Shown here one piece after another: positions 3,149-59,012 of a stretch of 64,000 bases of DNA. Location of the stretch: assembly GCA_025174535.1 (NCBI GenBank), contig JALBUN010000023.1:1860001-1924000 (forward strand), in the 5' to 3' direction. A model generated the notes under the pieces. That model made no database searches and was not told the DNA's origin. It saw only the letters and a list, made by a program, of their open reading frames with translations. Positions within the stretch are counted from its first letter, which is position 1; each line of letters opens with the position of its first letter. The stretch comes from Cantharellus purpuraceus. Its lineage: Eukaryota > Basidiomycota > Agaricomycetes > Cantharellales > Hydnaceae. The position numbers and the translations under genes are program-made.

Positions 3149-3255
3149 ACTCATCTGGGAAAGATGCAGGCTGGATTGCAATGGCAAGCCTGATAGCATG
3201 AATGAACCCATCTGTCTTTGTACAGTCTCCACTAAATTTCTCCAGTTCAGCTGCT
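3149..3255. other. Unassigned spacer between two element fragments
   Basis: About 100 bp between the end of the family-2 LTR fragment and the broken family-3 gag. No frame or repeat could be assigned. Confidence 0.4.
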
Positions 3256-3495
3256 TTATGGGACGAGCAGATGATGATGCAGGAGGAGAGGGGAGATGGT
3301 TTGTGCTGCAGTGACAGCAGCAGCTGTGGCAGCCTCAGCTAGGTTGTTCTGGACATTGGCAAACTGGCCCTGGAGGTGCTGGTTCTGGAGTTGCAGCTGT
3401 TGGAGCTGCTGCACTTGGCTGTTGAGCAAGGCTCGCAAGAAGGCACCACTTTCACCCAGAGTGCCCCAATATGCCTCAGGAAGTTGATTGGCCAT
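3256..3495 (-). pseudogene. Family-3 gag N-terminal fragment
   Basis: The minus strand encodes MANQLPEAYWGTLGES followed by a glutamine/leucine-rich stretch (QQLQQLQLQNQHLQ) and an alanine-rich run. This is nearly the same as the start of the intact family-3 gag at 10409. Similarity ends after QTIS, so only about 70 residues remain. It lies just inside the minus-strand LTR at 3563-3898, in the order expected for the 5' end of a family-3 element (LTR, primer site, gag). Confidence 0.85.
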
Positions 3496-3562
3496 GATTG
3501 GTGTGGAGGGTAATAGGGAAAGTGTTTATAAAGTGTGGGGTCATCTTATGAGCTTGATCTTC

Positions 3563-3898
3563 TGTGAGGGCTATGCTGAATGACGAGGCCACAACAACAA
3601 GATACTTAATAAGTGAGAGCTGATAAGAGATAATGCTGGTACAGCAGATATCCTCAGTCTATACACTTGTCACTGATAAATACATGGGACTCACCTGGTA
3701 CAGCAGATATCCTCAGAGATCAAGCTGAGGAAACCGTGCTGCACCAGGCAAGGTCTTTATACTAGATGACACAAGGAATAGGAACCAAGATATGGGAACA
3801 ATAGGGGAGAGATAGGAGAGTGCACCCTAACAGGCTGTGCTGATAGGGGCAATAAGAAAGGTACTAAAAATAGAAACTGAGTCATATGAACCCTGACA
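3563..3898 (-). repeat. Family-3 LTR, minus strand
   Basis: Read on the minus strand it begins TGTCAGGGTTCATATG and ends GCCCTCACA, matching the family-3 LTRs at 9920 and 16045. It holds the TATAAAGACC region, the AGCTTGATCT self-primer sequence and one full 59-bp internal unit. The bases just inside the LTR (3551-3562) again read GAAGATCAAGCT on the minus strand, so the primer-binding arrangement is kept in this third copy. Confidence 0.88.
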
Positions 3899-4058
3899 AT
3901 CTCCTTCATCTCCATCCCCATCAACTCCACTTCCATCAACTCCACCTCTGTCAACCCCAAACTCCATTACTGTTCTCTCTATAAGTAGTTTCTTCTTATG
4001 GGTTACAACAAACCTCCTTCTTTATTATTGTTTAGTTTCAGTTCAGACTTGGGTCCAA

Positions 4059-6123: not shown

Positions 6124-6524
6124 TGTTATGACTATATTCATTAACGTCCAGATCCCCGTCCGATCCACTCAGATCCCCACGTGTATGAAATCTATACTCC
6201 ATTTGGAAACCACCACGTCTCCATCTACCTGTCCGATTGTCACCGCCAATTCCGCCCATCCATCTCCGGTTCCGATTAATGCATCAGCATCATAGGAACC
6301 TGGACATCTGTCCCCATTGCACTTGGACATACTCATGTAAGGCCGTTGGCCTTGGAGACCCATCACTGGAGTAATTATTATTAGATTTCAAAATATGTAT
6401 TTAAGTTGCCCGACTGGGGACTTCATTCCCCAGTTTGAATCATGCCTAGTTCCTAAGTCTGATCCTAACTCTCTAAGTTGTACTCCATCTCCAAAATCTC
6501 AGACACTGGTATTAGTGAGGGCGC
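6124..6524 (+). repeat. Family-1 solo LTR, left part
   Basis: It begins TGTTATGACTATATTC and follows the family-1 LTR up to GTGAGGGCGC, where a family-2 element interrupts. The rest is at 22058-22163. The 5 bases before it (6119-6123) are ACACC, repeated at 22164-22168, so this is an independent insertion into the right arm of the foldback element. With the family-2 element removed the LTR is about 507 bp and has no internal element sequence, i.e. a solo LTR left by recombination. Confidence 0.9.
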
Positions 6525-6602
6525 TGACGAGCCAGGACGCATCGAGGACGCATATCGAACCACTCTGACAGTTCAACTCCGCCAGCGTCTTTTCGTATCA
6601 AC

Positions 6603-6611
6603 TTTTAAATA
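6603..6611 (+). promoter_or_regulatory. TATA-like box upstream of the LTR-borne frame
   Basis: TTTTAAATA lies about 120 bp before the ATG at 6731, followed by a CT-rich stretch. It is separate from the LTR's main TATA box at 7503. The same sequence occurs before the other two copies. Promoter activity is inferred. Confidence 0.45.
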
Positions 6612-6730
6612 GCGCCGCAACTCCCTATCCACCTCAGTCTCTAATTCGAGCCATCGATTGTCACTCGTGTTTCATCGCCATCGATCATTATCAGCCTTCT
6701 ATTCACACCAATCCTTTCATCATCATTCAC

Positions 6731-7165
6731 ATGGCTTCCCATTCTATTCCCCTCTCCAACATCACTTCTAATAATACGTCACACTGGTCTCTGGACACAG
6801 AGGACTATCAAAAATACGCCGAGCTCCATGGGCATGTTAAGCCACCTCCATGTGTCAAAATACTTCCAAAACTCTTTCAACGTCCAAGATCCCCACCATG
6901 TCTCTCTTATGCCATTGGCGATCCCATATTCTTTCACAATTCCGTTGAACCATATACATTCCTCGACATTTCACCTCTATATTGTAACACGGATAGAAGA
7001 GTCGAACGTGAGGTAGAATTTCAGTTGCCATCGCTGACCTATCCTCCCACTTCAATCCGACTCAGGTTACATTGTGTCAGGCAAAGGGACCAAATACTCT
7101 TGGAGCGGGATACCATATGGAGACGGATCACTAAGACAATAAGGAGTATTTGTTGTGGAAGCTGA
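6731..7165 (+). CDS. LTR-borne 144-aa accessory protein, copy 2 (family-2 5' LTR)
   Basis: An intact frame lying wholly in U3. Because U3 is transcribed only at the 3' end of a retroelement mRNA, the 3' LTR copy would sit downstream of pol in the genomic transcript, while this 5' copy would depend on its own TATA-like box. Landmarks: WSLD 19-22, PPPCVK 38-43, IGDP 62-65, PYTF 74-77, W130 and a cysteine pair near the C-terminus. These align in order and nearly without gaps with the family-3 protein at 15554. No database family is recognised. A C-terminal amphipathic helix with cysteines could attach to membranes, but that is a guess. Confidence 0.7.
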   Translation: MASHSIPLSNITSNNTSHWSLDTEDYQKYAELHGHVKPPPCVKILPKLFQRPRSPPCLSYAIGDPIFFHNSVEPYTFLDISPLYCNTDRRVEREVEFQLPSLTYPPTSIRLRLHCVRQRDQILLERDTIWRRITKTIRSICCGS

Positions 7166-7502
7166 CTGAAGTCCTCATGTGACTCAGGGTCAATTAACCT
7201 TTGGAGCCGTAGGGAAGATGGTATTGGTGGACGTTTCTATTGTTCTTTTATATGACTCACCCCTGTTTCATCTTTTAATTCATTCATACACAACTTACTC
7301 ATCCTTGTTCTATTTTTGGTTCTTTTATTACTCATCACCCCCTATTCTTACAAAGATTACCCCTATCTGTCGTTTCATTTCTCCATGATTTCCCCTTTAG
7401 TAGTTCAACTTCACACGCTTCGTCAGCTGGCTTGATCAGCATTTCTTGCATCATATCGCATCATTTGCTCCTCATATTGTGTCGTTGTCCCCCGGGGATT
7501 TG

Positions 7503-7511
7503 TATATAAAA
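7503..7511 (+). promoter_or_regulatory. Main TATA box of the family-2 LTR
   Basis: TATATAAAA followed by GGGCGC. Transcription would start near 7535, giving a leader of about 550 nt to the gag ATG at 8093. The identical box is in the 3' LTR near 21618. Confidence 0.7.
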
Positions 7512-7938
7512 GGGCGCTAGTCTTCGCCTTTGGAATCAATTAACAAGTTTTCAGCCAACGCTCTAAAGTCAAAGTCCACGCTCTAAGTCTACGCTCTACG
7601 CTCTACATCACAATCCATCATCTCTACACCGAGGTAAACACCTTGGTTCAACGATCAGATTTCCCTCCGCCACCGAGAGGTTGATTCTCCTGAAACCAGC
7701 TTTCGCGTACCTCCCAACCGGGCTCCGCATTGTCATCCAGTCACAGAGCACGATCAGCCATCGGGACCGACCTTTTGCTCCCATCCTCATCCAACCACAG
7801 AGCACTATCCCACTTCCCTGTTACGTACTCCTCGCCCTGATTGATCTTTGGAGTGCTGAACAACTGCGTTACACACCGTCTGCTTGCTAGGACCGTTGCG
7901 CGCAGGCTTATAGGATCTATTCCTTAAGCGAACCGACA

Positions 7939-7960
7939 TAAGTGGCTGCCCCAGAGAGGC
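7939..7960 (+). promoter_or_regulatory. Possible tRNA primer-binding site of family 2
   Basis: Just inside the 5' LTR the sequence reads TAAG then TGGCTGCCCCAGAGAGG. A TGG-initiated site fits priming by a tRNA 3' CCA end. I could not assign the tRNA, and saw no match to the predicted mRNA 5' end, unlike families 1 and 3. Confidence 0.4.
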
Positions 7961-8092
7961 GCGTCAAAGACCATACAGGACGATTTGTCGACTGGCAGCT
8001 GGGAGATATCTAACTATTCCAACCTCTGAGTACGCTCTACACACCTGATCTCCCTTCAACATACGAGCATCACCTCCCCTTAATCTATTGCA

Positions 8093-9919
8093 ATGGCTCA
8101 ACCTAACCCCTCGATACCTTCCTCCACATGTTCCAAACTCGACTTTCCTATCCCTCACTCTCGAAATGCACCAAAATATTTTACCGGGCAATACGACGAA
8201 ATTGATCGATTCCTCAAGGAGTTTGAATCACTCGCACAGGCCTACAACCTCAGTAACGATGATTGGTTTGAACTTATTACTCGTCATGTCAAGAAATCCA
8301 TTCGGGAGACAATTGAAGGACTAGAGGAGTATACGGCAAAGGAATGGAAACCTTTTGCTGACACCCTTCGGAAACTCTTCGATCATGTCAAGACTGAGAA
8401 GCGCTTCAAAGAGAAAGACCTCGTCAAGTTCATTTCCAAAGCTCGTAGCCATCGTATTCGCAGTCTCTCCGATTTCCACAAGTACCAGCGGAAGTTCGCT
8501 CGGATCGGTGGATGGCTGTATCAGAACAAGAAGATTACGATTGAGGAGTACCGGAAGTATTTCTGGAAGGGAATCCCTCGATCTACGCAGAAGAAGCTCG
8601 AAGATCGAATGCTTCAGGAGAACCCCAGACTCACACGTTCCACCCCTTTCCCCATTGATATTATTGTTGCAGCAGCTGAGCATGTCTTCGATATCTCATG
8701 TTTCTATGATGAGGACTCGGATGACTCCTCCGCTTCAGAAGATGATTCTGATGATTCTGACTCAGATAATCACGACGATGACTCCGATGACAGCAGCAAC
8801 AGCACTGATGAAGACGTCAGAAGGACGAAGTATACTTCCAAGGGGAAAGCAAAGGAGAAAGCCCATGGCAAGCGTACCAAGGACGTGCAGAAGAAATCAA
8901 AGACGGTAGCAGAACCCACCCAGAAGGATGCAGATGAAGTCGCCGACCTGATCGACAAACTCCAGAGAATGAATCTAAATGACCCATCGTATGCCTCCCT
9001 ATATTTTCGAATTGTCACGAAAGCACCCAGTACTGCCAGCATTCTTACCATCCCCCCCAAACGTCCAAGTGACAGTATCATTAGAACCAGCACCACTCGC
9101 GCAAGTCCCAACCAGACGTCTAATGGTAGCCCATATGAATGTTATTTTTGCAGAGAACAAGGACACTCAACAAAGCGATGCCTACAAGCTGACACAATGA
9201 TTAAGGCAGGAACCATAATACGCACATCTGAAGGACGCATAGCATGGTCTGATGGAACTAATATCCTTCGAAATGGCACAGAAACAATCTTGAATGCGAT
9301 CAACCGAGAACTGGCTTTCCGGAGCAGAGTTAATGTAGACCGACCTACTTCTGCAACCAATCTCATACTCGGACGTTACAACCACAGCAGCATTTCGTCT
9401 GACGATGAGGATGAACAGGATATCTTAGGGAACGTATATGCGTCGGAGGTTTATCCAGCAGCAAGATCAAGAGATGAGCACCGTACGGAACGTTTGAAGA
9501 AGGTCAAATTTGAGGGAGTATATCCACCGCCATTGGAAAGGTCTCATAGGAATGAAGAATACGAGAAGGAGAACTCAGTTCCAAAGAAACCTACGGTTCC
9601 TAAACTTCCAAGGACCACTACACCGGCACCACCTTCTACACCAGCACCTATGCCACAGTCTTCTGTCGTACCACCATCATTTTCAACCCCAGCACCAGTT
9701 GTGACACCAGCTCCTTACATGTCGCCACCTGTTCGACAATCAGCTCCTATTCCAGATCCAGTACAAGCACCAGCGATTCCGGGACCTACCATTGTCCCCT
9801 ACGATACAGCAGCATTACCTTTCGATCCAAACGATGATGATCAAATCATGGAAGATGTCAATGACTCAGATGTACCACAGTACGTTCCTCCTAGCATACC
9901 AGCTAAACAGTCGAGGGCT
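8093..9919 (+). CDS. Family-2 gag (5' part of gag-protease frame, split by family 3)
   Basis: The frame begins MAQPNPSIPSSTC. The first 210 residues hold a capsid-like region (FTGQYDEIDRFLKEFESLA), then an acidic/serine run (DDSDDSDSDNHDDDSDD), a basic stretch, and a zinc knuckle CYFCREQGHSTKRC (C-x2-C-x4-H-x4-C) near residue 345. A proline-rich linker follows. The frame is open to 9919, where the family-3 LTR begins, and resumes in phase at 16410 (codon GCT then AGG). The apparent stop after 9919 belongs to the family-3 LTR, so this is one gene interrupted by insertion rather than a gag with its own end. Confidence 0.9.
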
Positions 9920-10340
9920 TGTCAGGGTTCAAATAAGTCATATTCTATTTTTAGTATTTTCTCTTGACACCCCTATCAGCGCAGCCTGTCAGGGTGCGTC
10001 TCCCCTATTTCATTGCCCCTATCACTTCCCCTATCTTTCCTCCCCTATTTTGGTTCTCCTATCCGTCTCCATCATTTAGTATAAAGACTTGCCTTGGTGC
10101 AGTGTGATCCCCTCAGCTTGATCTCTGAGGATATCCGCTGTACCAGGTAAGTCCCATGTATTTATCAGAAACAGCTGTATAGACTGAGGATATCCGCTGT
10201 ACCAGGTAAGTCCCATGTATTTATCAGAAACAGCTGTATAGACTGAGGATATCCGCTGTACCAGCTGGCATTATTTCTTATCGGCTCTCACTTATTGAGT
10301 ATCTTGTTGTTGTGGCCTCGTCATCAGCGTCGCCCTCACA
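9920..10340 (+). repeat. Family-3 5' LTR (two 59-bp units)
   Basis: It starts TGTCAGGGTTCAAATAAG and ends GCGTCGCCCTCACA. It contains two complete 59-bp tandem units (10127-10185, 10186-10244) plus a partial third, whereas the 3' LTR has one complete unit plus the partial. This explains most of the 421 versus 360 bp difference. Confidence 0.92.
10080..10124 (+). promoter_or_regulatory. Family-3 TATA box and self-primer sequence
   Basis: TATAAAG starts at 10080. AGCTTGATCT at 10115-10124, about 35 nt downstream where the mRNA should begin, is the exact reverse complement of AGATCAAGCT at 10343-10352, two bases inside the LTR. This is the layout of Tf1/sushi-type self-primed elements. Confidence 0.65.
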
Positions 10341-10342
10341 GA

Positions 10343-10352
10343 AGATCAAGCT
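10343..10352 (+). promoter_or_regulatory. Family-3 primer-binding site (self-priming type)
   Basis: AGATCAAGCT, separated from the LTR end by the dinucleotide GA. It pairs over 10 bases with 10115-10124 in the LTR. It does not begin with TGG, so a tRNA primer is unlikely. Confidence 0.65.
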
Positions 10353-10408
10353 CATAAGACGACCCCACACCTCATAACACTTTCCCTATTAACTACTTCA
10401 CCGATACC

Positions 10409-11551
10409 ATGACCGATCAGCTCCCTGAAGCCTATTGGGACACTCTAGGTGAAAGTGGTGGCTTTCTGCGAGCGTTGTTCAACACCCAGGCGCAGCAGCT
10501 CCAGCAGCTGCAACTCCAGAACCAGCACCTCCAAAGCCAGTTCGCCAATGTCCAGAACAACCTAGCAGATGCTGCCACTGCTGCTGCCATTGCTGCAGCA
10601 CAGACCATCTCTCAGACCACCTCATTTCCCACACCTTCTCCTACATCGTCATCCGTTCGCCCAATAAGGGCAGCTGAACCAGCCAAATTCAATGGAGATC
10701 GTGCAGAGACGGAAGGTTTCATTCACTCTATCAGGCTTGCCATTGCAGTCCAGCCTACATCTTTCCCAGATGAGCGGACCAAGATCCTCTATGCCCTCTC
10801 TTTTATGACAGGAGGTTCTGCTGAAGTATGGGCGCACAATGAGACACAGGCAGTCATTGACAGGACCTCACCGCTCTCCACCTTGGAGGAATTCATTAAG
10901 CAAGTGGAGAACGCTTTTGGGGACCCTGACCGCTCTCGAACAGCACGAACAAAGCTACACGATCTTAGGATGACACCTGGCATGTCAGCGGATGAATACA
11001 CGGCACAGTTTGAGATACTAGCAGGAAGGACTGGGTTTAATGATGCAGCACTGGAAGATGCCTATGCCCGAGGGCTCCCTGCAATGATTCTTGACAAGAT
11101 CCATGCACAGCCATCCCTCCCATCCGATCTCAAGGCATGGAAGGAAGCGGCCTGTCAAATTGACCGCAACCACCGTCGTCTTCTAGAAGTGAGACGTGCT
11201 CAGACTTCCCTCACTCCTGCCCGCTCTACCCCATCCCGCCCTCACAGCACTCCAGTCATCTCTGTACCAACTACCTTGGCAACCTCTAATGGTGCTGCAC
11301 CTATGGATATTGACTCTAACCACCATCGCATTGAGACTCGGACGTGCTATAACTGTGGAAAGCGTGGCCATATATCCCCAGCATGCCCTGAACCACGCAA
11401 GGAACGTATCCGAGCTGATCTCACACAAACAGCAATTGCAGGCATGATATCAGAGTCAGTAGCAGCTGCACTGAAGGCCAAGGAAGAAGCGCAGAAGGCA
11501 GTAATTCCAAAGCAAGAGGAGAAGCAGGATTTTCAGGCCAGTCAGCAGTGA
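10409..11551 (+). CDS. Family-3 gag polyprotein
   Basis: 380 residues. A glutamine-rich coiled-coil N-terminus (about 25-60) is followed by a Ty3-type capsid region (AAEPAKFNGDRAETEGFIHSI near 90, then LYALSFMTGGSAEVWAHNE, and a DLRMTPGMSADEYTAQFE segment near 190-205), then a zinc knuckle CYNCGKRGHISPAC near residue 313. It would form the virus-like particle and package element RNA. It ends in TGA at 11549-11551. Pol is in the -1 frame and its first ATG is 5 nt after that stop. No canonical slippery heptamer was found in the overlap, so pol may be made by reinitiation or an unusual shift. Confidence 0.93.
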   Translation: MTDQLPEAYWDTLGESGGFLRALFNTQAQQLQQLQLQNQHLQSQFANVQNNLADAATAAAIAAAQTISQTTSFPTPSPTSSSVRPIRAAEPAKFNGDRAETEGFIHSIRLAIAVQPTSFPDERTKILYALSFMTGGSAEVWAHNETQAVIDRTSPLSTLEEFIKQVENAFGDPDRSRTARTKLHDLRMTPGMSADEYTAQFEILAGRTGFNDAALEDAYARGLPAMILDKIHAQPSLPSDLKAWKEAACQIDRNHRRLLEVRRAQTSLTPARSTPSRPHSTPVISVPTTLATSNGAAPMDIDSNHHRIETRTCYNCGKRGHISPACPEPRKERIRADLTQTAIAGMISESVAAALKAKEEAQKAVIPKQEEKQDFQASQQ

Positions 11552-11556
11552 AGAGC

Positions 11557-14500
11557 ATGCCCTGCCTGACAAACCAGTTTTCAGTTCTTGAATCATGTAC
11601 TGTAGGGCTCACAAGCGATATGTTACACGCACACTCCCTTGTCCATCAGACTGAAACCAAAACAGCCATGCCTGAAAACCCTTCTCAACTTCCAGCTAAA
11701 CATGATGACCCTCCTCGTCTCTACCTTCGATCTGCAGACATCCGTCGATGTACAAGAATTCCCATGAAAATCCACTCGGTAGACACTGGATACCCTCTAG
11801 CTGTGGATGCACTCCTCGATAGTGGTGCTACAGGAATGTTCATTGATGCAGAATATGTCAAAGCAGAGAAACTTCGAACACGCCCTCTACCACGTGCCAT
11901 ACCTGTTTATAACATTGATGGGACCCCAAATGAAGCAGGTTCAATCAAGGAAGAAGTCGATCTCATCTGCACATATGGGACCCATACTGAACGTGCCACA
12001 TTTTCAGTCACAAGCCTGGGAACCTTTGGGATAATTGTTGGGCACACCTGGCTTGTGAAGCACAACCCAGAGGTAGACTGGCGTACAGGAAAGGTACAGA
12101 TGACTCGCTGCCCTGATTCATGTGGAGAAGTACCAGAACACAAAGAGCATTCGCTTGGTACAACTCCTTCAAATGGCAAGAACTCACACGGGCAACCCCA
12201 ATACGAGGGAGACCGAACATTTGTTATCTTTGTAGAAGAAGACTTGGAGAATATCTATGCTGGTTCAACAGTTTCTCAACAGCTCGCACAGAAGGCTGCA
12301 GAATCCACTCCAGTCAAAACCTTTGAGGAGATTGTCCCAAAGGCGTACTGGGGATTTAAGGATGTTTTTGCAAAGGAGTCCTTTGACCAACTTCCACCTC
12401 GAAAACTGTGGGACCACGCTATTGAACTCACTCCAGGAGCACAACCCTTCAGCACAAAGGTCTATCCAATGTCCCCAAATGAGCAGAAGGAGTTGGACGC
12501 ATTCCTTGAGGAGAACCTACGGAATCATCGTATACGTCCTTCCAAGTCACCCATGGCATCCCCTGTCTTTTTTGTGAAGAAGAAGGACGGTAATCTTCGT
12601 TTTGTGCAAGACTACCGCAAGCTGAATGATATCACAATCAAGAACGCCTACCCACTACCCCTGGTACCAGACATCATGAATAAAATTGCCGCAGCCAATG
12701 CCAAGTACTTTACCAAGCTTGACATCCGATGGGGATATAACAATGTGCGGATTAAAGAGGGCGATGAGTGGAAGGCAGCCTTTCGAACCAATCGTGGTCT
12801 ATTTGAACCCCTGGTCATGTTCTTTGGTCTCACAAACAGCCCAGCAACCTTTCAGACGATGATGAATGGCATTTTCAAGGAGCTCATTGACGATGGCACT
12901 ATGGTAGTGTTCATGGACGACATCCTCATTTTCACTGAATCCCTAGAACAACACCACACGATCGTGCAATCTGTCCTTGAAATTCTTTGGGCCAACCACC
13001 TGTACCTCAAACCAGAGAAATGCATTTTCTCGCAACAGAAGGTAGATTATCTTGGATTGATTCTCTCACAGGGACAGGTAGCTATGGACCCAGTTAAGGT
13101 GGCTGGAGTCAGGGACTGGCCCACACCGCGCAATGTGACAGAAGTCAAATCCTTCCTGGGTTTCATCAATTTCTATCGTCGCTTCATTGAGGACTTCTCA
13201 CATATCGCAAAGCCTCTGAATCGGTTAACAAAGGCAGATACACAGTGGTCCTGGATACCTGATGGCCCAGAACAAGAAGCCTTTGATAAACTCAAGCGGC
13301 TTGTCACGTCAACTCCAATCCTTGTCCTCCCAGATCAAACCAAGCATTTTCGACTAGAGACAGATGCTTCAGCATATGCAACAGGTGCTGTTCTATCTCA
13401 ACTCTGTGACGATGAGAAATGGAGGCCGGTAGGTTTTGTATCCAAGAGCCTTTCAGATGCAGAGCGCAACTATGCCATCCATGATAAGGAATTGCTCTCA
13501 GTCATCCGTGGACTAGAAGAATGGCGCCACATCTTGGAAGGGACCAAATACAAGATTGAAATCCTTAACGACCATCAAAACCTCACATATTTCCGTACAG
13601 CTCAAAATCTCAATCGTCGACAAGCTCGCTGGTCACTATACCTTTCTCGTTTTGACTTTGAACTGATCCACCGTCCTGGACGACATTCAGCCAAACCTGA
13701 TGCCCTCTCACGACGTGTAGATCATAAGCAGGGGGAGGAAGATAACCAGAACCAGATTCTTCTTGGCCCTGAGCTGTTCCACATTGATGCGACATCCACC
13801 TATCCAGGGCCAGAAGCTCAAATGATCACAGGAGAAGGAGACATATTCCTGGAACGTGTGCGGAATTGCACCAACAGAGATGAAAAGGTTGTAAAGGCTC
13901 TTAAGGAACTTGGCCCCTCTCGGAATTTACGAGGACAGGAATGGACCGAGGAGAATGGACTCGTCCTCTATCGTGGCAAGGTATATGTCCCTCTTGACCC
14001 AAAATTGCGCCATGACATTGTAAGGGCACACCACGATACTCACATTACAGGTCACCCTGGTCGCTGGAGAACAACAGAACTTGTATCCCGCAGCTACTGG
14101 TGGCCTGGATTTGGACGATACATTGCCAAATACGTCAAGGGATGTGACCTCTGCAATCGGACAAAAACTTTCCCTGCTCCTCCTATGGGTAAACTCCTGC
14201 CTAATCGTGTCCCAGATCGGAGGTGGCAAGTGATATCTGTTGACCTTATTGTAGAACTACCCATCAGCCATGGCTATGATGCACTCCTTGTCGTTGTGGA
14301 CCGTCTTTCCAAACGAGCACATGTTATCCCTACCACCTCTGACATCAACTCCATAGGAGTTGCACGACTTTTCCGAGACCATGTGTGGAAACACCACGGC
14401 CTTCCTGAGGAGATCATCAGTGACCGTGGCACCCAGTTTGTCTCTCAATTTATGCGTGAGCTCAATAAGCTTTTGGGGATCAAGGTTGCAGCATCCACAG

Positions 14501-15447
14501 CATATCATCCACAAACCGATGGTCAGACGGAAAGGGTCAATCAAGAAATTGAACAATACTTGAGGCTTTTCGTCAATCAGCGCCAGGATGACTGGATTGA
14601 GTGGGTTCCTCTTGCCGAATTCACATACAACAACCGCATCCACTCCTCCACGCAATCAAACCCCTTCATGCTTGATACAGGCCAACACCCAAGGCTTGGG
14701 TTAGAGCCAATCCGAGAGACACGACTTGAAGCACTGGAAGAATTCACTGAGCGTATGGAGACAGCCACCACTGAGGCTCGCTCCGCCCTGGAAAAGGCAG
14801 CAGATGATATGGCACGATTCTATGATGCCCATCGGCAAGCAGCCCCAGTATACAAACTTGGTGACAAGGTCTGGCTCAATGCACAAAATATCACCACCAC
14901 CCGTCCAACCAAGAAACTTGATCACAAATGGTTAGGACCGTATGTGATTAATAAAGTGGTCTCACGAAATGCCTATGGCCTACGACTTCCCCAAATCTTT
15001 GGCCGCACTCATCCAGTGTTCTCTGTTGTCTTACTCCGTCCTTATGAAAAGGATCCCATCCCTGAACGCCAGTCATCTCCTCCACCACCTCCAGTCATTC
15101 GAGATGGAGTACAGGAATACGAAGTTGAGAAGATCCTTGACAGCAGAGTTTTCCGAGGAAGACTGGAATACCTGGTGCGTTGGAAGGGCTATGGAGCTGC
15201 TGTCGACCTCTGGATCCCAGCTAAGGATGCCAGTGGGGCTAGAAGGCGCATTGCAGACTTCCATCAGGAAAATCCTGAAGCCCCAAGGCGTATTTCGGCA
15301 GCCACCTATGCGGCTCTTCCCTTCAGACGCTTTGAGAACTTCACAGAACCTCCCAAACAGGTCCTCTTTGATTGGACAGCTGGCAGGAACCCAACACGTG
15401 GTATTGGACACATTTCAGAGCCGCAGAATAGGCACAGTGAAGCTTAG
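11557..15447 (+). CDS. Family-3 pol polyprotein (protease, RT, RNase H, integrase, chromodomain)
   Basis: About 1296 residues from the first ATG. Order: aspartic protease (ALLDSGATGMFID near 90), reverse transcriptase (FVKKKDGNLRFVQDYRKLN, KLDIRWGYNN, then VVFMDDILIF with the catalytic aspartates), RNase H (LETDASAYATGAVLSQ, later HDKELLSVI), integrase zinc domain (H..H..C..C with CDLCNRTKTF), D,D,E core (ISVDLIVELP, ISDRGTQFVSQF, TDGQTERVNQEIEQY), GPY/F-type end, and chromodomain (EYEVEKILDSRVF, LEYLVRWKGYG). No stops or frameshifts, so it is likely functional. The chromodomain and self-priming layout fit the Tf1/sushi branch. Confidence 0.95.
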   Translation: MPCLTNQFSVLESCTVGLTSDMLHAHSLVHQTETKTAMPENPSQLPAKHDDPPRLYLRSADIRRCTRIPMKIHSVDTGYPLAVDALLDSGATGMFIDAEYVKAEKLRTRPLPRAIPVYNIDGTPNEAGSIKEEVDLICTYGTHTERATFSVTSLGTFGIIVGHTWLVKHNPEVDWRTGKVQMTRCPDSCGEVPEHKEHSLGTTPSNGKNSHGQPQYEGDRTFVIFVEEDLENIYAGSTVSQQLAQKAAESTPVKTFEEIVPKAYWGFKDVFAKESFDQLPPRKLWDHAIELTPGAQPFSTKVYPMSPNEQKELDAFLEENLRNHRIRPSKSPMASPVFFVKKKDGNLRFVQDYRKLNDITIKNAYPLPLVPDIMNKIAAANAKYFTKLDIRWGYNNVRIKEGDEWKAAFRTNRGLFEPLVMFFGLTNSPATFQTMMNGIFKELIDDGTMVVFMDDILIFTESLEQHHTIVQSVLEILWANHLYLKPEKCIFSQQKVDYLGLILSQGQVAMDPVKVAGVRDWPTPRNVTEVKSFLGFINFYRRFIEDFSHIAKPLNRLTKADTQWSWIPDGPEQEAFDKLKRLVTSTPILVLPDQTKHFRLETDASAYATGAVLSQLCDDEKWRPVGFVSKSLSDAERNYAIHDKELLSVIRGLEEWRHILEGTKYKIEILNDHQNLTYFRTAQNLNRRQARWSLYLSRFDFELIHRPGRHSAKPDALSRRVDHKQGEEDNQNQILLGPELFHIDATSTYPGPEAQMITGEGDIFLERVRNCTNRDEKVVKALKELGPSRNLRGQEWTEENGLVLYRGKVYVPLDPKLRHDIVRAHHDTHITGHPGRWRTTELVSRSYWWPGFGRYIAKYVKGCDLCNRTKTFPAPPMGKLLPNRVPDRRWQVISVDLIVELPISHGYDALLVVVDRLSKRAHVIPTTSDINSIGVARLFRDHVWKHHGLPEEIISDRGTQFVSQFMRELNKLLGIKVAASTAYHPQTDGQTERVNQEIEQYLRLFVNQRQDDWIEWVPLAEFTYNNRIHSSTQSNPFMLDTGQHPRLGLEPIRETRLEALEEFTERMETATTEARSALEKAADDMARFYDAHRQAAPVYKLGDKVWLNAQNITTTRPTKKLDHKWLGPYVINKVVSRNAYGLRLPQIFGRTHPVFSVVLLRPYEKDPIPERQSSPPPPPVIRDGVQEYEVEKILDSRVFRGRLEYLVRWKGYGAAVDLWIPAKDASGARRRIADFHQENPEAPRRISAATYAALPFRRFENFTEPPKQVLFDWTAGRNPTRGIGHISEPQNRHSEA

Positions 15448-15486
15448 CGCTCACCAAATTCATCCATGCCGAAATTCCACTAACTG

Positions 15487-15494
15487 TATATAAG
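15487..15494 (+). promoter_or_regulatory. TATA box upstream of the family-3 accessory gene
   Basis: TATATAAG lies 67 bp before the ATG at 15554 and about 40 bp after the pol stop, followed by a CT-rich stretch (CCACTTCCCCTTCCTCAG) typical of fungal start regions. It suggests that this gene has a transcript separate from gag-pol. Confidence 0.6.
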
Positions 15495-15553
15495 CCAGTG
15501 AATCCACTTCCCCTTCCTCAGTAAAACCATCATCGTTCACTACCCAACCCACC

Positions 15554-15991
15554 ATGCCTTACCAGTCTGAATCCACCACTCTACGCTCACTCCGTTCCTA
15601 CCCCTCAATCACTTGGTCAGTTGACTCAAGGGATACTGCACGTGCTGTAGAGGATTATAACCTCCCATCTCCACCTCCACAAGTTCATTTCCCCTTCTGG
15701 CATCGTAATCCATCCAGACGCCAGACATACTACATCGGGGACCCTCTATTCATCGGCAACTATGACATACCATATGCCTTCCAAGGGCTCGCCGGTAAAG
15801 TCACCTATGAGGGAGGGGAGATGATACTTGGGGCAGTTTTCAGCACGAACAATCCCATATCCCCTGGAGAGTTCACCATCCCACTTTACCCCAAGGCAGA
15901 GAAGAGTCACCATCAACACTCGTCATGGGCTCTACTTTGGCAGAGAGTGAGAAGGGACCTTGCAGAGTGCTTCAGGGTGTGTCTCTCTTGA
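15554..15991 (+). CDS. Family-3 accessory protein, 145 aa
   Basis: An intact frame between pol and the polypurine tract, a place where most Ty3/gypsy elements have no gene. It has WSVD at residues 21-24, PPPQVH at 40-45, IGDPLF at 61-66, PYAF at 73-76, W129 and a C-terminal tail with two cysteines. The family-2 LTR protein has the same landmarks at 19-22, 38-43, 62-67, 74-77 and 130 and nearly the same length, so the two are homologous although their polymerases are not close. No known envelope, nef-like or transporter domain is seen. Function unknown. Confidence 0.75.
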   Translation: MPYQSESTTLRSLRSYPSITWSVDSRDTARAVEDYNLPSPPPQVHFPFWHRNPSRRQTYYIGDPLFIGNYDIPYAFQGLAGKVTYEGGEMILGAVFSTNNPISPGEFTIPLYPKAEKSHHQHSSWALLWQRVRRDLAECFRVCLS

Positions 15992-16031
15992 GATGGATGG
16001 GACGATAGTGCATATCGAGACGACATGCATT

Positions 16032-16044
16032 AAGAGGGAGGTGA
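16032..16044 (+). promoter_or_regulatory. Family-3 polypurine tract
   Basis: AAGAGGGAGGTGA lies directly before the 3' LTR, in the position that primes plus-strand DNA synthesis. Confidence 0.8.
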
Positions 16045-16404
16045 TGTCAGGGTTCAAATAAGTCATATTCTATTTTTAGTATTTTCTCTTGACACCCCTA
16101 TCAGCGCAGCCTGTCAGGGTGCGTCTCCCATATTTCATTGCCCCTATCACTTCCCTATCTTTCCTCCCTATCTTGGTTCTCCTATCCGTCTCCATCATTT
16201 AGTATAAAGACTTGCCTTGGTGCAGTGTGATCCCCTCAGCTTGATCTCTGAGGATATCCGCTGTACCAGGTAAGTCCCATGTATTTATCAGAAACAGCTG
16301 TATAGACTGAGGATATCCGCTGTACCAGCTGGCATTATTTCTTATCGGCTCTCACTTATTGAGTATCTTGTTGTTGTGGCCTCGTCATCAGCGTCGCCCT
16401 CACA
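16045..16404 (+). repeat. Family-3 3' LTR (one 59-bp unit)
   Basis: Same ends as the 5' LTR; one complete 59-bp unit (16250-16308) plus the partial. It differs from the 5' LTR also by short C-run indels. The following GGGCT at 16405-16409 is the target duplication. Confidence 0.92.
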
Positions 16405-16409
16405 GGGCT

Positions 16410-17303
16410 AGGAAATCCGTACCGCCAACTATCCCTACTACATCTGCAAAACCAGTCAAACCGGCAATCAAACCGAAGCTTCCCAAGACACCTAAAACTC
16501 TTCCAAAGATTCTCCCACGACCTCCTTCTGCTACGATTCCAGCATCTGCCAAGCTTCAATCTCAGTGTCACAAGGATTTCGACACCGATCAATTTTTCCA
16601 GAAGATATGCGATACACCCATTACTATCACTATTTCAGAAGCCCTCGGATCATCCCCACTCATGGCCAAACGTATGCGGGAGTATTTGCAGCTAACTAGA
16701 GTCTCTCAGACCAACCAGATTGGAGAAGTCCATTCCATGGGATCGACAGCATCTTATCACCCCCATGACGCACGTCTCATTTCCATCAGGATGACATTAG
16801 AGGACAAGTATACTGTCGACACTATTATTGATTGTGGATCCGAACTTGACATTATCAACAAGAGGACGTGTATCCAATGCAACATTCCAATCGACACTAC
16901 TCCATTCATGTCTATGCGAGATGCTGGTCAACATGAAACTCCGATGGAAGGACGCTGCCATAATGTTACTCTCACGGCAGGCAATCTTGTAACCCTTACA
17001 GACCTTTGGGTTGGTGGAAAGGTTCCGTTCTCACTGTTATTAGGTCGACCTTGGCAGTGACGAAACCGCATTTCTATTGATGAAAGAGAGACAGGGACAT
17101 GGCTCTGCCGACGGGACCCTAATGATAGGAAGATATGGGAAACATGCGTCATTCCAGCTAAGCATGCAGAAGACTTTTTCGGTACCTTTCAGAACCATTT
17201 TTTTGGCCGAGATTACCCCTCTCCAGATTCGCTTCTAGCACAAATGACGATCAGATCAGCCCAGCAACTGGAAGAAGTGGAGACAGACGAGGACATCACC
17301 TAG
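16410..17303 (+). pseudogene. Family-2 gag-protease, 3' part, with a nonsense codon
   Basis: This continues the frame of 8093-9919 after the family-3 insertion. A proline-rich linker leads to a retroviral-type aspartic protease (VDTIIDCGSELDIINK) and a FSLLLGRPWQ segment. TGA at 17058-17060 stops it; the frame then continues open (starting RNRISIDERE) to TAG at 17301. A CGA to TGA change is the simplest explanation, since the sequence after it is still protein-like. The slippery site for pol lies beyond that stop. Confidence 0.8.
17198..17204 (+). other. Probable -1 frameshift site before family-2 pol
   Basis: T_TTT_TTT is in the correct phase of the gag-protease frame (CAT TTT TTT GGC). The -1 frame is open from here to the pol stop at 20611. 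Known -1 sites have this X_XXY_YYZ form; use here is inferred. Confidence 0.55.
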
Positions 17304-20300
17304 ACAAGTCGACCTCTTTTGTCCGGAATGACATTAAACTACCACCCGATACCCAATTTCACCATTCTTTAATTCCAAATTCCCCATCTAACTCTCTTCG
17401 AAAACTTCCTATTCCTATTTCCTCAGCCGTCACAAGAAAACGATACAAACCAGTTGATCAAAGAATTCGCCCCGTTCCAGCTACGTTTCCAGAAGAAGCT
17501 CGTGTAACAAGAAAATTCCCAGAAGATCCCCTTTTATCCCTTATTCCCCTTTCGCCTCATCCTCCAGAATTCACCCCCACTCCCAAACTCACCCAAGAAC
17601 GCCTTAATATTCTAAAAATTAATCCAGAAGGTTTCTTATGGCCAGAAGAAGAGAAGTTGTTTATTATGGCACTCGCTAATAATCAGGAAGTCCTAGCTTT
17701 TATTGAAGAAGAACGCGGAACCCTTCGACAGGATTATTTCTCGGATTATATTATCCCAGTTATCGAGCATGTCCCTTGGACAGATCGACAAATCCCTATA
17801 CCCCCAGCACTGGTTGACGATGTTGTCCAGATCATTCGAACAAAGCTTAACATTGGAGTTTTTGAGCCAAGCCAAGGATCGTATCGATCATCCATGTTTT
17901 GTGTGCCTAAAAGTGATGGCAGACTGCGAAACGTGATTGACCTCAGATCGCTTAACAGTATTACGATCAAAGATGCTGGACTCCCTCCAAACCTGGACGC
18001 TTTCGTGGAACCATTTGCAGCACATTCCATCTACTCCAGTTTCGATCTTCTATCTGGTTATGATGCCAGGATCATTCATCCCAAGAGTCGAGACCTTACA
18101 TCCTTTCAGACGCCACTGGGACTGCTACGTTATCGTGTTCTTCCTATGGGATACACTAATGCTGTTGCGGAATTTCAGAACTGCACTACGTTCATTCTTC
18201 AGGATGAAATTCCTCATAATGTCGGTGTCATGATGGACGATATAGGAATCAAAGGTCCACCCACACGATATGAATTGCCAGATGGATCATACGAAACCAT
18301 ACCAGAAAACCCAGGAATCAGACGTTTCGTATGGGAACATGCCATTGTGGTCAATCGAGTCTTACATCGCATCGCACATGCTGGAGCCACGATTTCTCCA
18401 AAGAAGTCTCAAGTTGCTCGACCCGAAGTGACCCTAGTTGGCCAAAGGCTTACATATGAAGGACGACTCCCAGATCCATCACGTGTCTCCAAGATTCAAA
18501 CATGGCCTTCTCCAACAAATACGACACATGTCAGAGGATTTTTAGGACTTTGTGGCACAATGCGCATATGGATCGAGAAGTACTCTGAGCTTGCACGTCC
18601 ACTGACAGAACTACTCCGAAAAGATGTACCATTCGAGTGGAACGAGTCACACCAAAAAGCCATGGACATTCTCAAGGAAGCGGTTGCAACATCACCAGCT
18701 CTTATTGCAATCGATTACAAGTCTGGACAGCCCGTTATCCTAGCCATTGACACATCCTCCATTGCCATTGGATATATCATTTACCACATTGATTCCCAAA
18801 ATCATCGACGCCCCGTACGATTCGGTTCTATTCCAGTCAACGATCGAGAAGCACGTTACAGTCAATCCAAGCTAGAACTGTTCGGTCTCTATCGTGCCCT
18901 TCGACAAAATCGTTTGCACCTCACGGGTGTCAAGAACCTCTACATCGAAGTTGATGCGAAGTACATAAAGGACATGATTAATAATCCTGACCTTCAGCCA
19001 AATGCGACACTAAATCGTTGGATTGCAGGCATCCTTCTTTTCGACTTCACTCTCGTTCACGTACCAGCTTCACAGCACAAAGGACCAGATGCTCTTTCAC
19101 GTCGGCCTGTTACAGAAGAGGACTCTGAGGTAGAGGAAGATGAAGAAGATGACTGGTTTGAAGAAGCTTATCACATTCATTCACGATCAGGAGAAGATTG
19201 GACAGCACTATACGGATCACCTCAAAGAGGAGGGTGGCATAACGTCTTTCAAGCTTATGGTGTCAGACACTCTGACGAGCTGTTACACCAGATCTACCAG
19301 TTCCTTTCTAATCTCCAGCTTCCTGCATTTGCCAACAGCATGCAAAGGAAAGCATTCCTTGACAAGAAAGCGCGATATTATTTTCTCAAAAATGACAAGA
19401 TGTGGAAGCGTACTGCGACTCGACCTCTCCAAGTTATCCTTGATCCCAAGAGACGTACTCAAATTATTCGACTCTCACATGACAACTTAGGACATCGAGG
19501 AGCTTATTCAACTGCCAAGACCATTTCACTTCGATTTTGGTGGCCATCATACGTCAAAGATGTCAAACACTTTGTTCGCACATGCCATCAGTGTCAAATT
19601 CGCTCCACATTCAAAGTTCATATTCCACCTACTATTTCGACTCCAGCCACTTTATTCACGAAGGTTTATCTGGACATTATGTTGATGCCCAAGGTTCACG
19701 GGTACCGGTACATTGTTGCTGCTCGAGATGACCTTTCAGGAGCTGCAGAAGGACGGAAACTGAAGAAGGCCTCAGCATGTGCTGTCTCTCAATTTATATT
19801 CGAGGAACTCATCTGCCGTTATGGGAGCATTGCAGAGATTGTGACAGACAATGGTTCAGAAGCCAAAGGTGCAACAGAAGAACTGCTTCGACGCTATGGA
19901 ATTCCACAGATTCGGATATCACCCTACAATTCACGAGCCAATGGAGTTGTCGAAAGGGGACATTTCACGATTCGAGAAGCCCTAGTCAAGGCATGCGAAG
20001 GAAACATATCCAAATGGCCAGACCTAGTCCATCATGCATTCTTTGCTGATCGTGTTACAATCAGGAAAGCCACCGGATTTTCGCCATATTATCTTCTCTA
20101 TGGAATCGACCCCGTCCTTCCCCTCGATCTTTTCGAAGCCACTTATCTCGTATCAGGGTTTAAGAAGAATCTTCCCACACATGAACTCCTTGCACTTCGA
20201 ATTCGTCAGCTAGTCAAGCATGATACCGACGTCCACAAAGCGGCAGACACTTTGCACCAGTCACGATTAAAGAGCAAACTCGAATTTGAGCGACGTTACC

Positions 20301-20611
20301 AGCACCGATTATGGAAGGGAGAGCACAAGCCAGGAGATTTGGTATTAGTACGGAACTCTAGAGTTGAGAAGGAATTGGATCGGAAGACGAAACCACGTTA
20401 CCTCGGACCATTCGAAGTCGTGCGACGTACTGCAGGAGGATCATATGTCTTGAAGGAACTAGATGGGACGATTTCGAAAAGAGGAGTTGCATCATTCCGC
20501 CTTCTACCTTACCACTCTCGAGATGGAAAACCTCTCTCTCCTGATAAGCTTCCTTTGGATGAACCTGATGATGCATCTGATGATGATTCTGATGAAGAAT
20601 TAGTTGACTGA
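17204..20611 (+). CDS. Family-2 pol (reverse transcriptase, RNase H, integrase)
   Basis: The frame is open from 17204 in the -1 phase relative to protease, and has no obvious early ATG, so it should be made by frameshifting. Reverse transcriptase: MFCVPKSDGRLRNVIDLRSL, SSFDLLSGYDA and VGVMMDDIGI (MMDD in place of the common YVDD/FMDD). RNase H: ILAIDTSSIAIGYII. Integrase: LGHRGAYSTAKTISLRFWWP with CHQCQ, then YLDIMLMP, VTDNGSEAKGATEEL and NSRANGVVERGHFTIREA. The end is acidic and has no chromodomain. Catalytic residues are present and there are no stops, so pol itself looks intact. Confidence 0.93.
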   Translation, partial: WPRLPLSRFASSTNDDQISPATGRSGDRRGHHLDKSTSFVRNDIKLPPDTQFHHSLIPNSPSNSLRKLPIPISSAVTRKRYKPVDQRIRPVPATFPEEARVTRKFPEDPLLSLIPLSPHPPEFTPTPKLTQERLNILKINPEGFLWPEEEKLFIMALANNQEVLAFIEEERGTLRQDYFSDYIIPVIEHVPWTDRQIPIPPALVDDVVQIIRTKLNIGVFEPSQGSYRSSMFCVPKSDGRLRNVIDLRSLNSITIKDAGLPPNLDAFVEPFAAHSIYSSFDLLSGYDARIIHPKSRDLTSFQTPLGLLRYRVLPMGYTNAVAEFQNCTTFILQDEIPHNVGVMMDDIGIKGPPTRYELPDGSYETIPENPGIRRFVWEHAIVVNRVLHRIAHAGATISPKKSQVARPEVTLVGQRLTYEGRLPDPSRVSKIQTWPSPTNTTHVRGFLGLCGTMRIWIEKYSELARPLTELLRKDVPFEWNESHQKAMDILKEAVATSPALIAIDYKSGQPVILAIDTSSIAIGYIIYHIDSQNHRRPVRFGSIPVNDREARYSQSKLELFGLYRALRQNRLHLTGVKNLYIEVDAKYIKDMINNPDLQPNATLNRWIAGILLFDFTLVHVPASQHKGPDALSRRPVTEEDSEVEEDEEDDWFEEAYHIHSRSGEDWTALYGSPQRGGWHNVFQAYGVRHSDELLHQIYQFLSNLQLPAFANSMQRKAFLDKKARYYFLKNDKMWKRTATRPLQVILDPKRRTQIIRLSHDNLGHRGAYSTAKTISLRFWWPSYVKDVKHFVRTCHQCQIRSTFKVHIPPTISTPATLFTKVYLDIMLMPKVHGYRYIVAARDDLSGAAEGRKLKKASACAVSQFIFEELICRYGSIAEIVTDNGSEAKGATEELLRRYGIPQIRISPYNSRANGVVERGHFTIREALVKACEGNISKWPDLVHHAFFADRVTIRKATGFSPYYLLYGIDPVLPLDLFEATYLVSGFKKNLPTHELLALRIRQLVKHDTDVHKAADTLHQSRLKSKLEFERRYQHRLWKGEHKPGDLVLVRNSRVEKELDRKTKPRYLGPFEVVRRTAGGSYVLKELDGTISKRGVASFRLLPYHSRDGKPLSPDKLPLDEPDDASDDDSDEELVD

Positions 20612-20625
20612 GGACAGTCAAATTT

Positions 20626-20640
20626 TAAGAGAAGGGTGGA
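20626..20640 (+). promoter_or_regulatory. Family-2 polypurine tract
   Basis: TAAGAGAAGGGTGGA directly abuts the 3' LTR start TGACGAGCC. Confidence 0.8.
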
Positions 20641-22053
20641 TGACGAGCCAGGACGCATCGAGGACGCATATCGAACCACTCTGACAGTTCAACTCCGCCA
20701 GCGTCTTTTCGTATCAACTTTTAAATAGCGCCGCAACTCCCTATCCACCTCAGTCTCTAATTCGAGCCATCGATTGTCACTCGTGTTTCATCGCCATCGA
20801 TCATTATCAGCCTTCTATTCACACCAATCCTTTCATCATCATTCACATGGCTTCCCATTCTATTCCCCTCTCCAACATCACTTCTAATAATATGTCACAC
20901 TGGTCTCTGGACACAGAGGACTATCAAAAATACGCCGAGCTCCATGGGCATGTTAAGCCACCTCCATGTGTCAAAATACTTCCAAAACTCTTTCAACGTC
21001 CAAGATCCCCACCATGTCTCTCTTATGCCATTGGCGATCCCATATTCTTTCACAATTCCGTTGAACCATATACATTCCTCGACATTTCACCTCTATATTG
21101 TAACACGGATAGAAGAGTCGAACGTGAGGTAGAATTTCAGTTGCCATCGCTGACCTATCCTCCCACTTCAATCCGACTCAGGTTACATTGTGTCAGGCAA
21201 AGGGACCAAATACTCTTGGAGCGGGATACCATATGGAGACGGATCACTAAGACAATAAGGAGTATTTGTTGTGGAAGCTGACTGAAGTCCTCATGTGACT
21301 CAGGGTCAATTAACCTTTGGAGCCGTAGGGAAGATGGTATTGGTGGACGTTTCTATTGTTCTTTTATATGACTCACCCCTGTTTCATCTTTTAATTCATT
21401 CATACACAACTTACTCATCCTTGTTCTATTTTTGGTTCTTTTATTACTCATCACCCCTATTCTTACAAAGATTACCCCTATCTGTCGTTTCATTTCTCCA
21501 TGATTTCCCCTTTAGTAGTTCAACTTCACACGCTTCGTCAGCTGGCTTGATCAGCATTTCTTGCATCATATCGCATCATTTGCTCCTCATATTGTGTCGT
21601 TGTCCCCCGGGGATTTGTATATAAAAGGGCGCTAGTCTTCGCCTTTGGAATCAATTAACAAGTTTTCAGCCAACGCTCTAAAGTCAAAGTCCACGCTCTA
21701 AGTCTACGCTCTACGCTCTACATCACAATCCATCATCTCTACACCGAGGTAAACACCTTGGTTCAACGATCAGATTTCCCTCCGCCACCGAGAGGTTGAT
21801 TCTCCTGAAACCAGCTTTCGCGTACCTCCCAACCGGGCTCCGCATTGTCATCCAGTCACAGAGCACGATCAGCCATCGGGACCGACCTTTTGCTCCCATC
21901 CTCATCCAACCACAGAGCACTATCCCACTTCCCTGTTACGTACTCCTCGCCCTGATTGATCTTTGGAGTGCTGAACAACTGCGTTACACACCGTCTGCTT
22001 GCTAGGACCGTTGCGCGCAGGCTTATAGGATCTATTCCTTAAGCGAACCGACA
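20641..22053 (+). repeat. Family-2 3' LTR
   Basis: Nearly identical to the 5' LTR. Differences noticed: one C fewer in a C run near 21460, and ATATGTC for ATACGTC near 20890, a C to T change at CpG that alters one residue of the accessory protein. GCGC follows as target duplication. Confidence 0.92.
20847..21281 (+). CDS. LTR-borne 144-aa accessory protein, copy 3 (family-2 3' LTR)
   Basis: Same protein as at 6731 except Thr to Met at residue 16. Its start lies about 240 bp after the pol stop. In the full-length family-2 transcript this is the only copy included downstream of pol, which is the same position as the family-3 homologue. Confidence 0.7.
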   Translation: MASHSIPLSNITSNNMSHWSLDTEDYQKYAELHGHVKPPPCVKILPKLFQRPRSPPCLSYAIGDPIFFHNSVEPYTFLDISPLYCNTDRRVEREVEFQLPSLTYPPTSIRLRLHCVRQRDQILLERDTIWRRITKTIRSICCGS

Positions 22054-22057
22054 GCGC

Positions 22058-58959: not shown

Positions 58960-59012
58960 ACAGGGAGTACCAACGCAGCCCTCAGCCTGTACAGAGGCTA
59001 TAGGACTGCTTA

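Follow-up and report, generated by a model that had tools for sequence, protein, structure and literature searches.

A small accessory protein family common to two unlike Ty3/gypsy families of one fungal genome

The window analysed here, a stretch of 64,000 nucleotides, contains two Ty3/gypsy retrotransposons, one nested within the other, and each carries a small additional ORF. In the element called family 3 the ORF follows pol, and in the element called family 2 it lies inside the long terminal repeat (LTR). The locus raises the question of whether the two ORFs encode related proteins, whether they serve the elements, and how two unlike elements came to have them. A first-pass annotation had proposed a new protein family whose conservation reflects a useful function for the element or the exchange of a gene module. 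We examined these proposals in the window and in the genome to which it belongs (40.15 Mb in 50 contigs); its retrotransposons and the genes around them point to a fungal host.

The family-2 element (6525-22053) is split by the nested family-3 element (9920-16404), and both elements and their features are on the plus strand. The family-2 LTRs (5' LTR, 6525-7938; 3' LTR, 20641-22053) are 1414 bp long, are 99.86% identical to each other and have TG..CA ends, and a 4-bp target duplication, GCGC, is present at 6521-6524 and 22054-22057. Family-2 pol (17657-20611) has reverse transcriptase, RNase H and integrase matches in Pfam, and a polypurine tract (20625-20640) lies immediately 3' of it, between the pol stop and the LTR. 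The protease matches of this element are weak (E-values of 0.004-0.009, Pfam), and its gag-like ORF, which is broken by the family-3 insertion, has no match above the Pfam cut-off. The family-3 element has a 5' LTR (9920-10340), a 3' LTR (16045-16404), a 5-bp duplication, GGGCT, at 9915-9919 and 16405-16409, and Pfam matches for gag (10409-11551) and for a pol gene with a chromodomain (11548-15447). Its polypurine tract (16030-16044) has the small ORF on one side and the LTR on the other. The elements that host the ORFs thus carry TG..CA LTRs, a target duplication, a polypurine tract, gag, and pol with the reverse transcriptase-RNase H-integrase order of Ty3/gypsy elements. The two polymerases are 26% identical over 923 residues, and Pfam detects no chromodomain in family-2 pol at E-values up to 1, in agreement with the earlier description of unlike polymerases that differ in the chromodomain. 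The family-3 LTRs also contain a 59-nt tandem repeat, with one more unit in the 5' LTR (10043-10264) than in the 3' LTR (16166-16328).

The family-3 ORF (15554-15991) is open, encodes 145 amino acids, and has the pol stop on its 5' side and the polypurine tract on its 3' side. Open ORFs of 144 amino acids are present in the family-2 5' LTR (6731-7165), in the 3' LTR (20847-21281), and in a third, truncated family-2 LTR copy at 2354-3148 that has the same ORF aboard (2560-2994), all on the plus strand, so that the four intact frames of 144 or 145 codons listed by the first-pass annotation are all present. Its placement of the family-2 gene inside the LTR also stands, given the 1414-bp repeat pair, the TG..CA ends, the GCGC duplication and the polypurine tract just 3' of the pol stop; the ORF lies entirely within the LTR, at LTR positions 207-641. 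The motifs attributed to the two proteins, WS(L/V)D, PPP, IGDP, PY and a late W, were all found where they had been described. In family 3 and family 2, respectively, the W is at residue 19 and 21, PPP at 38 and 40, IGDP at 62 and 61, PY at 74 and 73, and the late W at 130 and 129.

Alignment supports the relationship that these motifs suggest. BLASTP matches the family-3 protein to the family-2 protein with 34.7 bits and an E-value of 8e-8 (32% identity over 79 residues), and among the 128 open frames that reach 100 codons or more in this stretch, the best match of each protein, its own copies aside, is the protein of the other family. The Smith-Waterman score is 87, compared with a mean of 29.1, a standard deviation of 4.8 and a maximum of 70 for shuffled sequences, none of which reaches 87 in 20,000 trials. 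The annotation had named the lack of a significant profile match as grounds for rejecting the family, and hhalign aligns the small family-2 and family-3 profiles with a probability of 96.5% and an E-value of 7.7e-10 over 76 columns. Members have W-S/T-hydrophobic-D, PP, IGDP-x-F and PY-x-F in this order, in addition to significant matches among themselves. The significant alignment is confined to residues ~5-80 with both BLASTP and hhalign, and two alignments pair the late tryptophans and the cysteine tail differently. The claim that the proteins are related therefore holds for the first ~80 residues, and because the two alignments disagree, the equivalence of the late W and of the cysteine tail across families is not established. 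Proline- and serine-rich sequences could in principle resemble each other by chance, a reading to which the short aligned region and the low-complexity PPP and S runs lend something. However, the shuffles, the hhalign result and a match of the family-2 protein to a metagenomic relative (E-value 2e-10; see below) refute chance likeness unless one bias is common to all three, and we regard it as extremely improbable. The family-2 and family-3 ORFs encode one homologous family of accessory proteins, as judged from these sequence comparisons.

The metagenomic relative, P0001, is a protein of 138 amino acids on a contig of 6,041 bases, and it was found with an E-value of 6.8e-44 by a protein search with six members, which included proteins of family 3b, a subfamily of family 3. 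Compared with a family-3b protein, P0001 shows 63% identity. Because its closest match in the window genome, among the best 150 of 611 candidates scored, is 66% identical, P0001 probably comes from another organism. A search with four sequences that did not include family 3b gave no match at E-values of 1 or less, and one seeded with P0001 gave no further relative at E-values of 10 or less. P0001 is the one relative found outside the window genome; viral contigs and prokaryote genome contigs yielded none.

The view that no described domain fits is borne out by the databases searched. Pfam has no matching family at E-values up to 1, or up to 10 for extended frames, and this covers the dUTPase profile found in some fungal Ty3 elements and the GDSL and DEDDy domains known from ORF3 of bdelloid rotifer elements. 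Matches to NCBIfam and PHROGs (E-values of 0.22 and 0.27) were taken as chance, as were interleukin-33 matches (E-values of 0.6-0.7) obtained with the second of two PDB sequence queries; the first query gave no PDB match. The accessory gene family is likewise not described in the literature searched. Within the genome, a codon-restricted IGDP pattern that avoids the codons of known copies gave no matches that would indicate a third family. A profile scan of 101 extracted loci (L001-L101) and the window returned 138 matches, 26 of them with E-values above 1e-25. Eight of these weaker matches were read: six are decayed family-2 or family-3 fragments, and two (E-values of 0.28 and 0.35) are unrelated; the other 18 were judged by position alone. 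Since the genome searches scored the best 40-150 candidates, rarer accessory-gene families could be hidden.

Both families are abundant. There are at least 150 copies of the family-3 gene (the best 150 of 578 candidates scored) and at least 150 of the family-2 gene (the best 150 of 831), in lists that are ranked by protein score and hence biased. By our own count, stops are present in 15 of the 150 best-scoring family-2 rows, and by hand count in 6 of the 86 full-length family-3 rows with at least 88% identity. Less biased samples give a similar picture of mostly open frames. When the non-coding half of the LTR of family 2 served as the query, 44 matches were listed, of which 40 were fetched, the others being two window copies and two short ones. 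In 34 of these 40 the frame is open over 142-144 codons (twice with in-frame deletions), two have a stop, three a frameshift, and one is strongly diverged. For family 3, we took 40 copies by pol DNA, including the window copy, and compared them by hand with the protein-ranked list: 31 have a full-length match without a stop, seven, L050 among them, have the split match of one common frameshift, one has a stop, and one is interrupted, apparently by a family-2 LTR. On contig C23, at about 790658-792510, an insertion splits a family-3 accessory gene at the site recorded for a family-2 LTR that bears an accessory gene itself. Of eight full-length family-3b copies, L039 and L040 have no interruption of the frame, whereas one or two stops are present in each of the remaining six. 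TGA accounts for most of the stops in the family-2 gene (14 of the 15 stop-bearing rows among the best 150 of 831), and transitions dominate the non-coding family-2 LTR, with 1058 C/T and 536 A/G among 2004 pairwise differences; both are as expected from cytosine deamination.

The pattern of substitutions in family 3 suggests that coding has been maintained. In pairwise codon models, three comparisons of family-3 with family-3b genes give omega values of 0.50, 0.54 and 0.61 (2dlnL of 8.6, 6.5 and 4.0) and a fourth, L096 with L039, gives 0.64 (2dlnL of 3.4), so that omega is below 1 at the 5% level in three of four pairs, which are not mutually independent. Third positions are in excess, accounting for 53 of 117 differences. 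Four pol pieces from the same lineages have omega values of 0.15-0.26. Among more closely related family-3 copies, with 90-95% protein identity, omega is 0.48-0.72 and in none of eight cases significantly below 1. At the DNA level, the family-3/3b ORF (71-72% identity) is no better conserved than LTR pieces, which are mostly 71-82% identical, with an inner piece of 110-170 nt at 91-92%. Codon models are saturated when family 3 is compared with family 2, and that comparison was not used.

In family 2 we took the spectrum of non-coding LTR changes as the neutral expectation, which predicts a nonsynonymous fraction of 0.688 when based on 15 of 31 aligned rows (minus-strand and partial rows left out, one copy counted twice) and 0.691 when repeated with 27 of 29 rows. 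Counted as events, the changes that could be classed (60, from 42 copies) are nonsynonymous in a fraction of 0.633, compared with 0.69 expected, and the pairwise fraction is 0.67, also against 0.69; both counts include L067, a copy with a broken frame, and the event count leaves out L068, which is too diverged. Changes shared between copies have a fraction of 0.686 (n = 35), which corresponds to an omega of 0.99, and two stops are seen where 1.9 are expected. Copies L009-L038 were kept out of the dN/dS analysis because they had been chosen by protein score. Recent family-2 copies are therefore indistinguishable from neutral, and most of their changes may postdate insertion; in the family-3 branch, the data point to longer-term maintenance of coding under weak constraint.

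A further lineage bears on whether the protein is needed. Among the best 150 of 578 family-3 candidates, ten copies share one form of split match, whose two parts have 88-89% and 95-97% identity, and two more diverged copies look like members of this lineage. In the two copies that were read, L049 and L050, a common frameshift disrupts the accessory gene and the pol frame breaks near codon 729-739, with additional pol breaks in L049, and gag is open. The LTRs of L050 are identical (363/363). Recent movement of this lineage seems to have taken place with neither an intact pol nor an intact accessory gene of its own, and so both can be supplied in trans; it does not follow that elements can do without the accessory protein.

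These observations can be weighed against the reading that the ORF is a passenger without use for the element, open simply because its copies are young. The neutral pattern among recent family-2 copies, the loss of the frame in a recently mobile lineage and the lack of significance in all eight comparisons of closely related family-3 copies would fit such a reading. On the other hand, residue-level likeness extends across both families and to P0001 in open frames of 138-145 codons, and omega is below 1 between family-3 subfamilies. Also, at a neutral stop share of 0.031, about 3.6 stops would be expected in the 117 differences, yet two of eight full-length family-3b copies are open. We consider a passenger quite improbable. 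The proposal of a useful function, with dN/dS below 1 as its predicted sign, is then weakly supported: it draws on the family-3 comparisons with family 3b (omega of 0.50-0.64, three of four pairs significant), and the near-neutral family-2 copies and the recently mobile lineage without the frame count against it.

Two histories could account for the presence of related genes in unlike elements. In one, both genes descend from an ancestor with the order pol-ORF-polypurine tract-LTR, after which the start of the family-2 LTR shifted upstream over the ORF and the polymerases diverged. Both genes are directly downstream of pol, and the two polypurine tracts are similar (TTAAGAG followed by purine-rich DNA), as this history would predict. 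However, the gene changes more quickly than pol inside family 3 (omega of 0.50-0.61 versus 0.15-0.26): its protein identity between family 3 and 3b is 57-60%, compared with 78-85% in the four pol pieces used for omega and 64-87% in other pol pieces, some of them short or decayed. Under co-descent the gene should then be far less alike than pol between families, yet it is 32% identical over 79 residues, where pol is 26% identical over 923 residues, in a comparison that relies on short, saturated alignments. Because the gene outpaces pol within family 3 and is still not less alike between families, transfer of the module after the polymerases split is the favoured reading, and the suggestion of an exchanged gene module would hold; we judge co-descent unlikely.

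Candidate promoter elements lie upstream of each ORF. A TATA-like box, TATATAAG, is located at 15487-15494, 67 nt 5' of the start of the family-3 ORF, and 8 of the 9 family-3/3b copies that were examined retain its TATATAA. An initiator-like TCAGT (15518-15522), recognized post hoc, is 31 nt past the first T of this box. The family-2 ORF is preceded by the TATA-like box TTTAAATA (6604-6611), with TCAGT (6634-6638) 30 nt past its first T, and this pair is repeated at 2433/2463 and 20720/20750; all of these elements are on the plus strand. The TTTAAATA motif is present in 27 of the 28 family-2 copies whose ORF start could be placed, out of 30 loci chosen by protein score. The combination of TATA-like box and TCAGT occurs four times in the 64 kb, counting both strands, each time upstream of one of the four ORFs, whereas 30 Markov resamples contain a mean of 0.53 and a maximum of 3 occurrences. 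Because we saw the pattern first and counted it afterwards, and because a single LTR, in three copies, supplies three of the four occurrences, it is suggestive and not proof. The family-2 LTR has a second, canonical TATA box, TATATAAAAG, at 7503-7512 on the plus strand (LTR position 979), which is likely to set the start of the family-2 genomic RNA. Since this presumed genomic promoter is downstream of the ORF, the ORF would lie in U3, a location that applies to family 2 only.

A model that is consistent with these features, and that we consider somewhat more probable than its competitors taken together, is that of an accessory gene that evolves fast, acts in trans, has a promoter of its own and has been exchanged between retrotransposon families. 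Each gene would form its own transcription unit, with a TATA box and an initiator-like TCAGT ~30 nt downstream, and would be expressed apart from the gag-pol RNA; its product would be small and soluble and would serve the element in trans. Promoter and gene would have moved together between element families, and in family 2 the module would have come to sit inside U3. With the module in U3, a complete family-2 element has two copies of it, and each solo LTR is a stand-alone copy. The most likely role, to judge from circumstance, is that of a factor directed at the host, for instance an anti-silencing protein. The gene is small, evolves fast, apparently has a separate promoter and can be shared, and it has disappeared along with pol from a lineage that must be mobilized in trans, all of which would suit such a role. 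Less probable is a wider version in which the promoter-plus-gene cassette has spread among unlike fungal retrotransposons and the LTR copies (at least 150, the best of 831 candidates), solo LTRs included, may be independently transcribed genes for a protein that protects or mobilizes elements in trans, including relatives that lack the gene or pol.

The main rival to an anti-silencing role is a function in membrane or particle traffic. The protein might be an env-like or membrane-targeting ORF3 product whose C-terminal amphipathic cysteine stretch, possibly lipidated, binds membranes and aids particle traffic or cell-to-cell spread. The position of the family-3 gene between pol and the LTR is compatible with this idea. 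In each protein the strongest amphipathic window of 18 residues is C-terminal, with a hydrophobic moment of 0.51-0.64, and in families 3, 3b and 2 it holds W and cysteines; 0.9-4.0% of shuffles of the same window reach this moment, a figure uncorrected for the choice of the best window. However, there is no transmembrane stretch in these proteins (the highest 19-residue Kyte-Doolittle means are 0.41-0.87), and the charge of the last 30 residues is not conserved (+2 in family 3, +4 in family 2, and -2 in family 3b). Neither a transmembrane segment nor a fusion glycoprotein, either of which would mark an env-like ORF3, was detected, and Pfam gave no match. Structure modelling does not help this case: AlphaFold models are poor (pLDDT of 31.7 and 52.9), and Foldseek with the second model returned 75 matches at E-values of 10 or less, none of them at 0.001 or less, so no fold is claimed. 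A membrane-targeting protein thus appears rather doubtful, and a host-directed factor is the reading we prefer.

Parts of this arrangement have precedents. The sag gene of mouse mammary tumor virus (MMTV) is located in U3 of the LTR, and hence is present at both ends of the element and in solo LTRs; its product is a superantigen of an animal virus and is larger and membrane-bound. The family-2 gene resembles sag in its U3 location, and no sequence similarity is claimed. VANC proteins are encoded by DNA transposons of plants. In Arabidopsis, the VANC proteins of VANDAL elements are described as anti-silencing factors (PMC10398659, PMC5735166), and they offer a model for a transposon-encoded, host-directed factor of this type; the comparison is one of analogy and not of sequence. 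LTR retrotransposons of bdelloid rotifers have an extra ORF3 next to gag and pol, and the same type of ORF3 occurs in highly diverse retroelements, from which the authors infer gene sharing; the types named there are env-like, GDSL, DEDDy, and CC or TM (PMC5408684). That an additional ORF can be common to diverse retroelements is therefore already known, and the family described here is similar in this respect. It differs from bdelloid ORF3, as far as the latter is described there, in having no known domain, a fungal host, and in family 2 a gene inside the LTR with its own TATA-like element.

The literature that we found says little about accessory ORFs in fungal Ty3/gypsy elements. A survey of fungal Gypsy elements marks an "add. 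ORF" of unknown function in some full-length elements and dUTPase domains, and distinguishes chromovirus clades, such as MarY1, from clades without a chromodomain, such as Ylt1 (PMC2864245). Those ORFs may or may not belong to the accessory family. What is new is the protein family itself, the fact that two unlike families of the same genome share it, the TATA-like element, and the LTR location in one of the two. If the model is correct, a gene with its own promoter that is common to unlike families and stored in LTRs would reveal how functions directed at the host pass from one retrotransposon to another. Expression from solo LTRs could then be followed with the gene as a marker, and the question of whether anti-silencing or trafficking factors are encoded by fungal retrotransposons could be put to a clean test.

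Several other features of the window are recorded here. Directly after the truncated family-2 LTR copy, at 3150-3911, is a minus-strand LTR that is related to that of family 3 (78-83% identity). A repeated ORF of ~457 amino acids, with a cysteine-rich C-terminal half (CDLC..C..P..C..C), is present at 964-2334 on the minus strand, at about 53818-55244 on the plus strand, and at the end of locus L005, and it adjoins family-2 LTR ends at two places (window position 2354 and L005). One copy of this ORF was checked and has no significant Pfam match. A further element, with an integrase, a Tf2-like SH3 domain and a chromodomain, occupies 55390-59539 on the minus strand, and the accessory-gene profile found no family member near it. 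Neighbouring genes include splicing-factor and Sec7/Mon2-like genes.
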